Assembly: GCA_026988015.1 (NCBI GenBank)
Contig: JALSMA010000071.1
Location: forward strand, 1 to 36,776
Direction: 5' to 3'
Origin: Desulfobulbaceae bacterium
GTDB lineage: Bacteria; Desulfobacterota; Desulfobulbia; Desulfobulbales; Desulfocapsaceae
Length of the DNA: 36,776 bases
Part shown: positions 23,676 through 34,557 of the stretch, one piece after another
How the letters are laid out: every line of letters starts with the position of its first letter
Numbering within the stretch: position 1 is the stretch's first letter
Position numbers and translations under genes: made by a program
Notes under the pieces: generated by a model
Told to the model about the DNA's origin: nothing
What the model saw: the letters and a program-made list of their open reading frames with translations, nothing else
The model's database searches: none

Positions 23676-24365
23676 ATGACAGCATTTCTTACTGTGAGAC
23701 ATATTGCAAAATCGTTTCATCTAGACAAGGATGTGACGGTTTCTGCACTCAGGGATATTAATCTTGATATAGATAGAGGAGAATTTGTTGTGATCTCCGG
23801 CCCGTCAGGAAGTGGAAAGACAACTCTTCTAAATATCATTGGTGGTCTTGATGTCCCTGACAGTGGAGAGGTCATTCTTGACGGACTGAAACTGACAGGA
23901 CTTTCGGAACGTAGCTTGTCCCGTGTGAGACGTGATCACATAGGATTTGTTTTTCAGGCCTATAATCTGCTTCCAGTACTGACTGCCCGTGAAAATATTG
24001 AGTATGTCATGAGGCTACAGGGGGTTAAGGGAGAAAGGTGCAGAATACGCAGTGCAGAGATTTCTGAAAAGTTAGGGATAGTATCTTTACTGGATAAGCT
24101 TCCCAATCAGTTGAGTGGTGGACAGCAGCAGCGGGTTGCTGTGGCTAGGTCGGTTGCGGCGACTCCTCGTCTTGTTCTTGCCGATGAACCAACCGCAAAT
24201 CTTGACTCAAAGTCTGCGATAGCCCTCATTGATATGATGGAAAAACTGAACCAGGAAGAAGGGGTTACGGTTATTTTTTCATCCCATGATCCCATGGTTA
24301 TTGGAAAGGCCAGGCGCTCTGTGGTGCTCAAGGATGGAAAGCTTGTTGCAAATAATGCCATATAG
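23676..24365 (+). CDS. LolD/MacB-type ABC transporter ATPase
   Basis: The 229-residue nucleotide-binding subunit contains Walker A GPSGSGKT (42-49), Q-loop Gln94 in VFQAYNLLP, signature LSGGQQQR (146-153), Walker B LVLADE (166-171), D-loop and switch His204 in SSHD. All catalytic residues are present, so it should hydrolyse ATP. The family (MJ0796/LolD/FtsE-like) powers FtsX-type permeases, which matches the two genes upstream. Its last 11 bases overlap the start of the beta-barrel gene, supporting one transcript and coupled translation. The substrate is not set by this subunit; the LolA-like and barrel partners suggest a lipidated or hydrophobic cargo bound for the outer membrane. Confidence 0.94.
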   Translation: MTAFLTVRHIAKSFHLDKDVTVSALRDINLDIDRGEFVVISGPSGSGKTTLLNIIGGLDVPDSGEVILDGLKLTGLSERSLSRVRRDHIGFVFQAYNLLPVLTARENIEYVMRLQGVKGERCRIRSAEISEKLGIVSLLDKLPNQLSGGQQQRVAVARSVAATPRLVLADEPTANLDSKSAIALIDMMEKLNQEEGVTVIFSSHDPMVIGKARRSVVLKDGKLVANNAI

Positions 24366-25323
24366 GAAAACAATCTGCCAGCTCCTGACTGCTGTCTGCT
24401 TCGGTTTTGTTCCAGGACTGAAAGTGGAGAACAGTCAGATTCCGGGGTACGACGCTAGGTTCCATGCCTTTGACTACAACCGTCTGCGTGCACAATTGAA
24501 CATTGACCATGATCTCCATCCCAATTTTACTGCCACAGTGATTGTTGACAATGAAAGCTATCTCAAATCTGTTTCCGGGAGTTTGGAAAACAGGATCAGT
24601 CTGTATCGTGGCTATGTGGAATACCTAGGAGAGAATCATTCTTGGATAATAGGAAAACAGCGTATTCCCCTGGGGGTTGGTCAGTTCTGGAACCCCATTG
24701 ATGTCTTTAATCCCATAAATATTGAAGCTGTGGAACCGGATGAGCGTCCTGGAACTGAGACCATTCGCTATGAATATGGTATTACATCGCTTTCCAATCT
24801 TGATGTGAATGTAGCAGAGGGAAAGGGAGCCATTCGCGTGAAGGGCTATCTGGATTTTGCAGATATAGCACTGCTTGGGCTCTGGGATGACGATTATGGC
24901 TTTGATATCATTGGTTGGGAACTTGAGGGGGAACTGGGCACGACAGGTATAGAACTGCGCAGTGAAGGAGGGAGTTTTCGTGAGCATCAGTCAGGGGAGC
25001 GTCATATCGAATGTATTATTGGCGCTGAATATGGTTTTGCAAATTCCCTTACACTCAGCGGAGAGTATTACTTCATAGATGTTTCCGGAAGTGATATGCT
25101 GGGGTTTTCAGCACGTTTTAGACCAGTTATGCTCCTCAGTTGCTCCTTTACCAGTGTGTTTACCACGGATGATGGCTCAGGATTTGTTTCGCCTGTTATC
25201 GAGTACAGTCTCAGTGATGAGATGACTCTCAGCGGTGGCTTGTTCTGGTATTTTGGTTCTGACACATCTCTGTTAGGAACCGGTTATGATCGTGTGTATC
25301 TACGTTGGTTTATAAATTTTTGA
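24355..25323 (+). CDS. Outer-membrane beta-barrel protein of the LolA/ABC operon
   Basis: The 322-residue product starts at ATG 24355, inside the ATPase gene's 3' end; the longer frame from 24286 runs through ATPase coding sequence and is discarded. A short hydrophobic stretch (about 7-20) looks like a signal peptide, although its cleavage site is not obvious. The rest alternates polar and hydrophobic residues, is rich in Gly, Tyr and acidic residues, and ends in Phe (WFINF), the C-terminal residue that the BAM machinery recognises. IIGKQRIPLGVGQFWNPIDVFNP resembles the early strand region of porin-like families such as DUF1302 or alginate-export proteins, but this is a resemblance only. It probably forms the outer-membrane end of the export route encoded upstream. 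Confidence 0.7.
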   Translation: MPYRKTICQLLTAVCFGFVPGLKVENSQIPGYDARFHAFDYNRLRAQLNIDHDLHPNFTATVIVDNESYLKSVSGSLENRISLYRGYVEYLGENHSWIIGKQRIPLGVGQFWNPIDVFNPINIEAVEPDERPGTETIRYEYGITSLSNLDVNVAEGKGAIRVKGYLDFADIALLGLWDDDYGFDIIGWELEGELGTTGIELRSEGGSFREHQSGERHIECIIGAEYGFANSLTLSGEYYFIDVSGSDMLGFSARFRPVMLLSCSFTSVFTTDDGSGFVSPVIEYSLSDEMTLSGGLFWYFGSDTSLLGTGYDRVYLRWFINF

Positions 25324-31447: not shown

Positions 31448-31597
31448 ATGTCAAAAAAGAAAGACAAGAAAAAAGAGAAAGAAAAAAAGAAAGATAAGAA
31501 AAAAGTTTGCACGAAGAAAGAATGTAAGGCCAAAGATGTGAAGAAGAATAAGAAGTCCAAGAAGAAAGATAAGAAAAAGTCCAAAAAGAAGAAATAA
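31448..31597 (+). CDS. 49-residue lysine-rich small protein
   Basis: ATG 31448 is preceded at five bases by AGGAGG (31437-31442), the strongest ribosome binding site in the window. The frame ends at TAA 31595-31597. The product has 31 Lys in 49 residues (63%), with only Asp, Glu, Ser, two Cys (21 and 26, spaced CTKKEC) and a few others; it has no hydrophobic core and must be disordered. Runs of KKK separated by D, E or S resemble histone H1-like or nucleic-acid-binding tails. It follows a promoter-like region, is divergent to an HTH gene, and is followed by a hairpin at 31609. Its function is unknown; binding of DNA, RNA or another polyanion is a guess from charge. A simple A-rich repeat that happens to be open is the alternative, but the ribosome binding site argues against it. 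Confidence 0.6.
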   Translation: MSKKKDKKKEKEKKKDKKKVCTKKECKAKDVKKNKKSKKKDKKKSKKKK

Positions 31598-31925: not shown

Positions 31926-34316
31926 ATGAATAAAATACTTATAATTGATCAGACTGAGGAGTGTACGAAGACTATTGCTGATTCCCTTGTGGAGAACGGC
32001 TATGCGGTGATGACTGCAAATAATGTTTTTCGGGCAGCGGCAATTCTTCACAAAAAGAAATTTGATTTGATACTCTGTTCCCAGACTCTTTTCTTCGAGT
32101 CGCAGTCTCCTTTGAAAGAGATTATTCTCGAAGATACCAGACACAGTAAAGTGATACTGCTGCAGGAACGCTGGGAGGAAACTGTAACATCATTTGATAA
32201 TCCCCGCATCATCGGACAAATTTTAAAACCTGTGGACCAGGAGAAACTCCTTGAGGTGATTTCTACTCAGATTCAAACAAGTGGGTTTACTGGAATGGTA
32301 AGTGATATCGATATCACGGATTATCTTCAACTTCTTGCTATGAATAAGGCAACTAAGGCATTTGTGGTGGAAGGAAAAAGTGGTAATGGAGTTATGGTTC
32401 TCCATAAGGGAGATCTTATTTATGTAAAGTATAACGAATTCCGAGGTGACCTTGCATTTCATGCTTTGATGGCCCTGGAACATGGGAAAATTATTGATAA
32501 GAAACTCAAGCGAATCCCCGCCAGGAATGTTACTGCTCCTCTGTCACGACTTCTGCTCGAAACAGGTAAAAACCGTGATGAGAGCAAGACAGAAGAGAGT
32601 GCTTCAATGGATGATTTCCTGATAGGTGAGAGCAACCCGTCTTTAAGGCAGGAGGCGCTACATCCAGAGATAATAGCTGAACCCCAAGCTGGAAGTAGCC
32701 GTGGGGCTTTGCTTCTGGGTGTTTCTCTACTTCTTCTCTTTGTGACCTTGGGTGGATTAGTATGGAATCTGTTACCATCAGACGACAGTATTGAGAACCA
32801 GCTTGCTGCTACTGTAAATGGGAATGGGGTAGTGGCACCAGTATCTTCGAATATCTTTGCTGGAAATCCTGAGCTGGTTTCCACTTCAGAATTACCCTCC
32901 CTTGCAGGTGGGGTGGCTGAAGAACAAGAAATGCCTGAAAATGTTGTTCCTGAACAGGAGGAAAAGTCACCTGTTATTGCAGGTGGTGAAAAAGCAGAGA
33001 CTGATATTCCTCTACCGGCAGAGGTTCAACCGGATATAATTTTACGTCTCCATGGTTCCAATACCATAGGTGCTTCCCTCGCAGTCAATCTTGCCTCAGA
33101 CTACCTTGCTCATCGACTTGGCTTTACTGATATCAAGGTGAGAGCGGGCAATAACAGTGTAGAAAAAATTATAACGGCCCATACTGCGACTGGCCTGGTT
33201 GGCATCGAAATTTATGCCCATGGTTCTTCGACCGGATTTAAAGATCTTGATTCGGGAACGTGTGACGTCGCCATGGCTTCTAGGAAAATAAAAGAAAAGG
33301 AAGTTGTTTCGCTGGCGAAATTTGGTGACATGACGGCTTCTGCAGCTGAACACATCCTGGCCCTTGATGGTATCGCTGTTATTGTGAATAAGGGGAACCC
33401 AGTTAAAACTCTCACCATCGAACAGATTGCTGCAATATTTTCCGGGAAAATAAGGGACTGGAAAGATCTGACAGATGGAAAATATGAAGGTACAATACAT
33501 GTTTACGCCCGTGATGAAAAATCTGGAACTTTTGATACCTTTAAAGGGATAGTTTTAAAGAAACTGCCCATTGCTGAATCGGCAAAGCGCTATGAATCAA
33601 ATGCCGAATTGTCAGATGATGTGGCAAGAGACAGACTTGGTATTGGTTTTACCGGCCTGCCGTATATCAGGCAGTCAAAGGCGGTCTCAGTATCTGATCT
33701 TGGTACTATCCCAATTTTCCCAAATTTTTTCACTGTGGCCACAGAAGATTATCTTCTGGCAAGACGACTCTATCTTTATGTCCCTCCAAACAGTGAAAAC
33801 CAGACGGCAAGAGACTTTATAGAATACAGCCTCACTGCGCCCGGTCAGATTGTCGTGAACGATACTGGCTTTGTCGATCTTGGCATTCGCTCTTTTGCGG
33901 CGGGCATTGATATGGATGAATTGATAATTCAGAACAGGGTTGTTTTTGAGCACTATACCAAAGAAACGAAGGACAAAAAACGTCTTTCCCTGAACTTCAG
34001 GTTCCGGGAAAACTCTACAGATCTTGATAATCGTGCGCTTCGTGATCTTGACAGGATGGTTGACTTTTTGAAGAATCAGCCCATTGAAGGTGTTACTTTG
34101 ATCGGGTTTGCGGATAGCAAGGGAGAGTATCATTATAATACCAGTCTTGCCATGGAACGTTCAAAGGTGGTGCGAAGGGAGCTGAGGAGTCGTGGAATCC
34201 CGATTTCTTCAGTGATCAGTGCATCTGAAGAGATGCCGGTTTCATCAAATATGACCAACAGGGGACGGGAAAAGAATCGTCGGGTTGAAGTATGGGTCCG
34301 TTTGAATAATGTGTGA
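31926..34316 (+). CDS. Pseudo-receiver/DUF4388/TM/PstS-like/OmpA fusion protein
   Basis: This 796-residue protein joins modules from both sides of the inner membrane. Residues 1-115 look like a response-regulator receiver (KILIIDQ, Lys101 in ILKPVD), but the phosphoacceptor position is Ser52 (FDLILCSQ), so it cannot be phosphorylated normally. Residues about 116-205 resemble DUF4388 (GFTGMVSDIDITDYLQLL and GVMVLHKGDLIYV). One span lies at about 261-283. After an acidic linker, residues about 368-660 match PstS-like phosphate-binding proteins (LHGSNTIGASL, SSTGFKDL, VAMASRKIK, GKIRDWKDL, DEKSGTFDTF). Residues about 685-796 are an OmpA C-like peptidoglycan-binding domain (FRENSTDLD, LIGFADSKG, NRGREKNRRVEV). 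PstS-OmpA proteins are known; the cytoplasmic half is the odd addition. A possible role is sensing phosphate or another oxyanion at the cell wall. GGAG precedes ATG; a terminator follows. Confidence 0.85.
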   Translation: MNKILIIDQTEECTKTIADSLVENGYAVMTANNVFRAAAILHKKKFDLILCSQTLFFESQSPLKEIILEDTRHSKVILLQERWEETVTSFDNPRIIGQILKPVDQEKLLEVISTQIQTSGFTGMVSDIDITDYLQLLAMNKATKAFVVEGKSGNGVMVLHKGDLIYVKYNEFRGDLAFHALMALEHGKIIDKKLKRIPARNVTAPLSRLLLETGKNRDESKTEESASMDDFLIGESNPSLRQEALHPEIIAEPQAGSSRGALLLGVSLLLLFVTLGGLVWNLLPSDDSIENQLAATVNGNGVVAPVSSNIFAGNPELVSTSELPSLAGGVAEEQEMPENVVPEQEEKSPVIAGGEKAETDIPLPAEVQPDIILRLHGSNTIGASLAVNLASDYLAHRLGFTDIKVRAGNNSVEKIITAHTATGLVGIEIYAHGSSTGFKDLDSGTCDVAMASRKIKEKEVVSLAKFGDMTASAAEHILALDGIAVIVNKGNPVKTLTIEQIAAIFSGKIRDWKDLTDGKYEGTIHVYARDEKSGTFDTFKGIVLKKLPIAESAKRYESNAELSDDVARDRLGIGFTGLPYIRQSKAVSVSDLGTIPIFPNFFTVATEDYLLARRLYLYVPPNSENQTARDFIEYSLTAPGQIVVNDTGFVDLGIRSFAAGIDMDELIIQNRVVFEHYTKETKDKKRLSLNFRFRENSTDLDNRALRDLDRMVDFLKNQPIEGVTLIGFADSKGEYHYNTSLAMERSKVVRRELRSRGIPISSVISASEEMPVSSNMTNRGREKNRRVEVWVRLNNV

Positions 34317-34347
34317 ATTTCAGGTATGTTTGTAGAGACGTATTCGG

Positions 34348-34386
34348 AAGGAGGCGACCCACAACTGGATTTGCCTCCTTTTTTCC
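34348..34386 (+). terminator. Rho-independent terminator after the fusion gene
   Basis: A perfect 8-base stem AAGGAGGC (34348-34355) / GCCTCCTT (34373-34380) with a 17-base loop runs straight into six T (34379-34384). It lies 32 bases after the stop codon of the fusion receptor, so that gene is probably transcribed as its own unit. Confidence 0.85.
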
Positions 34387-34557
34387 CTTTGCAAGTTTAT
34401 TAGAAGGTATAAAACTGTTCTGAACTGACAGTGTCTTCTCCTGTAATCGGTTAATAATGTTAGCGATATTGTTTTTGAAATATTACAGTGGGTAGCAGTT
34501 TTTCCTTGAAGCCATTCATGACCTGTTCTGCACAGTGATTCAGAAAGATCTGTTCTT

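Follow-up and report, generated by a model that had tools for sequence, protein, structure and literature searches.

What might be done by a protein that carries a receiver and a DUF4388 domain on one side of a membrane span and a phosphate-binding-protein-like (PstS-like) domain followed by an OmpA domain on the other? The question is raised by a gene in a 36,776 nucleotide stretch of DNA from a Desulfobulbaceae bacterium, the whole of which is called the window below. The original prediction, made from the DNA sequence, held that these five parts are present in one chain and that their combination had not been described. The open reading frame begins with ATG, has no internal stops and is preceded, on direct reading of the sequence, by GGAG 5 nt upstream of the start codon. 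A Pfam scan of the 796 amino acid product returned Response_reg, DUF4388, PBP_like_2 and OmpA in that order. The five predicted parts were all recovered, the domains by Pfam and profile matches and the span by hydropathy, and the same order is seen in relatives. Two single-sequence AlphaFold runs gave mean pLDDT values of only 36.5 and 35.3 and the fold assignments therefore rest on sequence profiles. The features are collected in Table 1.

Table 1. Features of the fused gene and its downstream flank, in window coordinates.
Feature	Position	Strand	Basis or remark
Whole gene, 796 aa	31926..34316	+	receiver - DUF4388 - TM - linker - PstS-like - OmpA, single frame
Pseudo-receiver, residues 4-112	31935..32261	+	Pfam Response_reg and family profile
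Ser52 codon, phosphoacceptor column	32079..32081	+	alignment; Asp in 24/24 module-less receiver-DUF4388 proteins
Lys101 codon, conserved receiver Lys	32226..32228	+	alignment; Lys kept in 6/8 fused proteins, window included
DUF4388 (PF14332), residues 122-220	32289..32585	+	Pfam, 32.9 bits
Single transmembrane segment, residues 261-279	32706..32762	+	hydropathy 2.56, sole segment over 1.6
Periplasmic linker, residues 280-371	32763..33038	+	fast evolving by dN/dS
PstS-like binding domain, residues about 372-660 (limits set by eye)	33039..33905	+	PBP_like_2, TIGR02136, profiles
OmpA-type peptidoglycan-binding domain, residues 693-785	34002..34280	+	Pfam; Asp730, Arg745 kept
Hairpin and T run, likely intrinsic terminator	34347..34386	+	MFE -24.4 kcal/mol, z -3.97 for 34330-34400

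Homologues with the same order had been proposed as a check on the prediction. The full order was found in 8 of the 257 genomes of the class that were searched (the first pass of the class searches scored at most 3 or 11 candidates per genome and copies may be missed). Identity of the fused relatives to the window protein is 86% in G010, 59% in G008 (partial), 54% in G004, 45% in G110, 39% in G161, 38% in G158 (partial) and 37% in G140. In G008 the contig runs out ahead of most of the PstS-like sequence, the OmpA part being assumed, and in G158 it runs out within OmpA. In the class profile search the eight fused proteins scored 287.8-351.1 bits, a shortened relative in G151 scored 234.7 bits and the other matches listed scored 139.7 bits or less. 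That two genes were joined by an error of sequencing or assembly, which had been named as a possible refutation, is extremely improbable and was ruled out, as the same continuous frame recurs in separate genomes. From these sequence comparisons it is nearly certain that the receiver-DUF4388-TM-PstS-OmpA architecture is real and is contained in one chain. No description of it was found in the open-access literature, among the matches listed (subscription papers and architecture databases lay outside the scope), and a scan of genome contigs gave one weak PstS match (30%, a Verrucomicrobium record) and no named relative of the fusion. The parts are known individually; as far as we could look, their combination is a new architecture, and within the same scope the claim that it was undescribed stands.

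Reduced forms of the gene also exist. Proteins of the order DUF4388-TM-PstS-OmpA, without a receiver, are encoded in G032 and G171 (L017 and L046), and a second gene of G032 has neither receiver nor DUF4388. In a tree of 35 PstS-OmpA modules (two partial rows dropped), these head-reduced genes nest inside the receiver-bearing group and so losses of the receiver or of the head are the simpler reading; the fork uniting that group has support of only 86/73. In G151 (L149, 3181-4257) the frame stops after a dead receiver and DUF4388, at 238 residues. Beyond that stop, still in frame, comes a stretch that encodes a span, and no PstS-OmpA part was found downstream within the stretch read.

The receiver is the least obvious of the domains. 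Response_reg (PF00072) matches the window protein with an E value of 1.8e-5 and 25.3 bits, under the Pfam cut-off of 30.2. However, a profile built from eight family receivers matched solved response regulators with a best E value of 9e-13 (model positions 1-83), and many further matches ran from model position 1-4 to 113-118. The homology was accepted on account of this family profile despite the low Pfam score; the assignment is weak from the window protein alone and firm, at the level of sequence, for the family. The phosphoacceptor column reads S, S, T, S, P, N, N and S in the eight fused proteins and is never Asp (in the profile alignment the N of L044 is a Q). All eight retain Asp8, the first of the acidic residues; the second survives only in L015 and the receiver Thr in none, L047 having Ser there. 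By contrast, the full D-D-D-T-K set is present in all 24 distinct receiver-DUF4388 proteins which lack the module. This comparison was made in a profile alignment of 38 rows, namely seven fused proteins (L016 being the fused protein outside it), the shortened G151 protein, which has His at the phosphoacceptor site, two receiver-less proteins and 28 rows without the module. The 28 rows represent 24 distinct proteins, four loci being present twice, and these are a subset of the matches obtained, most matches of the class profile search lying outside the comparison. The predicted Ser52 thus belongs to a non-Asp column throughout the fused family, and the predicted Lys101 falls at the conserved Lys column by alignment.

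When the window gene is compared with its 86% relative, a single genome pair, dN/dS is 0.068 for the receiver, 0.072 for DUF4388, 0.084 for the PstS-like domain and 0.057 for OmpA, against 0.412 for residues 222-371 comprising the linker and span. Most of the more distant pairs are saturated at synonymous sites and are little informative. Judged from this one pair, purifying selection on the dead receiver is strong. As Asp is lost in all eight fused proteins and in none of the 24 module-less ones, and as dN/dS is so low, it is quite likely that the receiver has a role independent of phosphorylation.

The hydropathy scan (threshold 1.6, numbering on an 808 amino acid frame) found a sole hydrophobic segment over the threshold, in agreement with the single membrane span predicted. 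Lys and Arg flanking the span were counted in seven fused proteins and favour an N-in orientation in six; the bias is small in the window protein (1 vs 0) and reversed in L043 (1 vs 3). The N-terminus is presumably cytosolic.

DUF4388 was matched by Pfam with an E value of 7.3e-8, its bit score exceeding the cut-off of 25 as expected from the prediction, and it was matched in all ten members of A1. Among solved structures, a sequence search with DUF4388 gave no relative, the best E value of 0.85 being taken as chance. We take DUF4388 to be the Pfam name of the PATAN domain. Extracts of two reports (PMC10519157; PMC7690835) describe binding of PATAN domains to the pilus motor PilB in Synechocystis, and the first of these extracts adds that PATAN regulators work via PilB, whose localisation decides the direction of twitching. 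Extracts of other papers place PATAN genes in some cases near MglA or MglB (PMC4316618), and describe an interaction of PatA with the divisome while terming the function of its PATAN domain undetermined (PMC7380572). PilB was found in all ten carriers searched, including both receiver-less ones, but all 19 members of the genus that were sampled have it as well, and 15 of these are without the fusion. The presence of PilB was therefore dropped as support for a pilus output, which it permits without favouring, and output through the type IV pilus machinery is doubtful.

The periplasmic half is much more readily recognised. PBP_like_2 covers residues 427-637 (E value 1.1e-29, 104.5 bits, cut-off 27), TIGR02136 covers residues 422-651 (E value 2.3e-50, 171.4 bits, under the NCBIfam cut-off of 206.6) and profile matches to solved phosphate-binding proteins reach 1.1e-32, all as anticipated for a phosphate-binding-protein-like domain. 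The motifs GSSAG, MASRDLK and REDGSGT align with those of the solved proteins. The spacing R-x3-S-G-T presumably equals that of the phosphate ligands in E. coli PstS. The pocket motif residues Gly377, Ser378, Thr380, Ser434, Thr436, Arg529, Ser533, Gly534 and Thr535 are present in all 37 module sequences, as are G382, H432, G433, S452, D481, G482, D530, D537, E607, Y609, R613 and R614; invariance was judged only at the positions queried. R453 is kept in 35 of the 37. The predicted OmpA domain was matched (PF00691, E value 4.7e-14, 53 bits) over the cut-off of 27.2. The Asp/Arg pair of OmpA domains makes the contact with peptidoglycan. Here Asp730 is kept in all 35 rows with a letter at that column and Arg745 in 33 of 35, with Trp in the other two. 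Since the PstS motifs and the OmpA pair are kept in the modules, a functional pocket and wall binding are predicted as likely, and the motifs lean towards an oxyanion as the ligand.

Each half of the protein has known counterparts. A protein named by NCBI as 'phosphate ABC transporter substrate-binding/OmpA family protein' (WP_152441739.1, Pseudoalteromonas sp. THAF3) has the same PstS-like and OmpA module, being 43.4% identical over 99% to the C-half of the relative L015, and the module of the window protein aligns with it too. Like the window protein it has one hydrophobic segment ahead of the module, but its head of roughly 89 residues matches neither receiver nor DUF4388. PstS of the TIGR02136 type (solved as 4q8r and 4gd5) has the same pocket motifs; unlike it, the window domain lies behind a membrane span, is fused to OmpA and has, as judged by eye, additional residues ahead of the HGS motif, and the 20 window proteins scanned include no permease. 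At the other end, module-less proteins such as L004 and L007 of the same genome also have a receiver followed by DUF4388, but they differ from the fused proteins in their intact phosphorylation residues and in having no PstS-OmpA module. Of the 24, 22 have no segment over the hydropathy threshold, and the other two, L131 and L139, have a single one close to the C-terminus; in L007 a Roadblock/LC7 domain follows. The cyanobacterial PATAN-CheY regulators are soluble. PixG, PilG, TaxP2, PixE, LsiR and PatA join PATAN to a CheY-like domain, according to extracts of the literature (PMC10519157; PMC7690835; PMC7380572), the first of which places PATAN at the N-terminus in PixG, PilG and TaxP2, whereas DUF4388 follows the receiver in the window protein.

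The neighbours of the gene on one side, encoded on the opposite strand and with small ORFs between, are a histidine kinase and a Peripla_BP_6 protein; Zip and MarC proteins, encoded on the same strand as the gene, lie on its other side. Among ten contexts compared, these neighbours are common only to G010, the 86% relative, and operon logic was dropped for this reason. An acyltransferase and a PhoH-like neighbour common to G140, G171 and G032 were set aside because their orientations differ. The gene is probably monocistronic since a likely terminator follows it, although this hairpin was not listed by a simple terminator scan. A promoter scan gave 7 sites, where chance alone would give 4.9, and none lay upstream of the gene. 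Elsewhere in the window, an extremely lysine-rich ORF of 49 residues with two Cys lies upstream of the gene (31448-31597, +); its first 24 bases were matched exactly in 3 of 149 loci, all of them copies of the window. A type II/IV secretion ATPase (PF00437; 4640-5722, +), similar in size to PilT and with a weak match to the PilB model, has a lysine-decarboxylase-like gene on one side and an MFS gene on the other. A 345-residue ORF (24286-25323, +) with no Pfam match at E <= 0.001 is flanked by an ABC ATPase and by an RNA methyltransferase.

The PstS-OmpA module is found behind other heads. Modules were collected from the class search, from 395 genomes sampled across the phylum, of which 5 matched (the window genome being one of them), and from an order sample of 141 genomes around G451 (9 with a match); in a search of 72,556 plasmid records, 1 matched across 80% or more of the query. 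Their N-termini, labelled by eye, include 12 with a signal-peptide-like segment only, 5 with a four-Cys pattern (C-x5-C...C-x2-C), 9 with a kinase and 1 of gamma-proteobacterial type, and some modules are headed by DUF4388 alone. On the tree of 35 modules the kinase group forms one side of a branch with support of 100/99, and 6 changes, the minimum possible, suffice to explain the seven head labels. Pkinase scored over its cut-off in the three kinase heads given to Pfam (L067, L074 and L077). HRG replaces HRD in all nine kinase heads (L067/L070-L078, family f39), and L077 and L078 have DGFG where the others have DFG; other kinases of four of those genomes, taken at E <= 1e-15, keep the catalytic Asp in 5 of 5 (HRD, HRD, HQD, HQD, HKD). 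The hydrophobic segment before the module is under the threshold in 8 of the 9 kinase-headed proteins, and their span was assumed from the run after KRRR or similar. Family f39 is thus a candidate group of transmembrane pseudokinases. Two unrelated signalling folds sit dead on one periplasmic module; this represents two origins and could be chance.

Several neighbourhoods of these other modules were recorded. Tubulin_2 genes, called by Pfam in G297 and G407 and by similarity in G332, adjoin or lie near four-Cys-headed genes (L100, 7631-10663; L101, 9693-12756; L102, 4074-7079). An EAL-CBS-GGDEF gene is beside or near a four-Cys module in G193, with a 93% identical homologue in G190. In G451 genes for an MCP, a GGDEF-EAL-CBS protein and a pseudokinase-PstS-OmpA protein stand in a row on one strand, and homologues in G755 have the same order (L088, 2015-9981; L104, 7314-14954); the row was not found in G722, nor directly adjoining the gene in G736.

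The reading we prefer, tentatively and at a little below an even chance, is that the gene product is a single-pass, inner-membrane receptor which is tethered to the wall, free of phosphotransfer and equipped with a docking head. The ligand sensor anchored in the cell wall that the original prediction proposed, signalling inward by domain movement without phosphorylation, is compatible with the sequence data and partly supported by them. The OmpA domain would tether the chain to the cell wall, the PstS-like domain would close on phosphate or a similar oxyanion and, as the periplasmic half shifted on its tether or came under a different tension, this change would pass via the span to DUF4388. 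The pseudo-receiver would serve as a fixed docking or dimerisation face and not as a phosphorylation switch, and DUF4388, as a PATAN-type domain, would bind a motor or polarity protein, the type IV pilus machinery being the best guess. Phosphorylation is left out of the scheme because the phosphoacceptor is gone across the fused family, and the second, seemingly dead signalling domain on this module, the kinase head, also speaks for the receptor. Against it count the modules with a signal-peptide-like N-terminus only, the near relatives that lack the receiver (2 genes) or the whole head (1 gene), the weak charge bias of the window protein, the neighbours confined to the 86% relative and the TIGR02136 score under its cut-off. 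For inward signalling across the membrane, taken separately, the chances appear evenly divided. It might instead be argued that the receiver is a drifting relic and that DUF4388 alone matters, given that L017 and L046 have dispensed with the receiver and kept DUF4388 and that, at longer range, the receiver is more diverged (47% identity between G000 and G004) than the C-half (66-68%). The low receiver dN/dS between close relatives, and the Pfam matches (E <= 0.01) that the receiver still gives in every one of the eight members which have it, make this quite improbable.

The main rival to the receptor is a serious one, though in itself rather unlikely: the protein would be an envelope tether or landmark linking the inner membrane and the wall, sensing no small ligand on the time scale of signalling, with the PstS-like and OmpA parts positioning the cytosolic receiver-DUF4388 scaffold at a particular site. 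Because 12 of the 37 modules, as labelled by eye, have a signal-peptide-like segment and no cytosolic head, the periplasmic half can act without inward signalling. A positional role is also in keeping with the tubulin-like genes beside or near four-Cys modules in three genomes, with the FtsZ-like 1 operons containing OmpA-family proteins and protein kinases that an extract of PMC2875224 describes, and with the dependence of PATAN regulators on PilB localisation (PMC10519157) and the contact of PatA with the divisome (PMC7380572), both again from extracts. A mere tether would, however, have no need of the oxyanion-pocket motifs retained in all 37 modules. The strong similarity to the PstS family would suit equally an accessory to phosphate scavenging or transport, in which the Pst permease receives its phosphate from the PstS-like domain, with only a minor regulatory part for the cytosolic half. 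Pfam found no pst permease among the 20 window proteins scanned, three other PBP_like_2 proteins are encoded in the same genome and a chain tethered to the wall would presumably make a poor shuttle, so that this role is very unlikely.

More generally, and with considerable doubt, the PstS-OmpA module may define a class of wall-anchored transmembrane receptors which signal via dead heads, by docking without phosphotransfer. These heads would be the pseudo-receiver with DUF4388 in this bacterial class and the pseudokinase in family f39, and the signal would be an oxyanion or the wall. If the receptor reading is true, a periplasmic signal would cross one span to a non-enzymatic head, and the roles of a pseudo-receiver and of DUF4388 would become testable within one chain. 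It would also provide a function for a PstS-OmpA family that NCBI names as part of a transporter, a name which contrasts with the window gene, where no Pst permease gene is present among the neighbours scanned.
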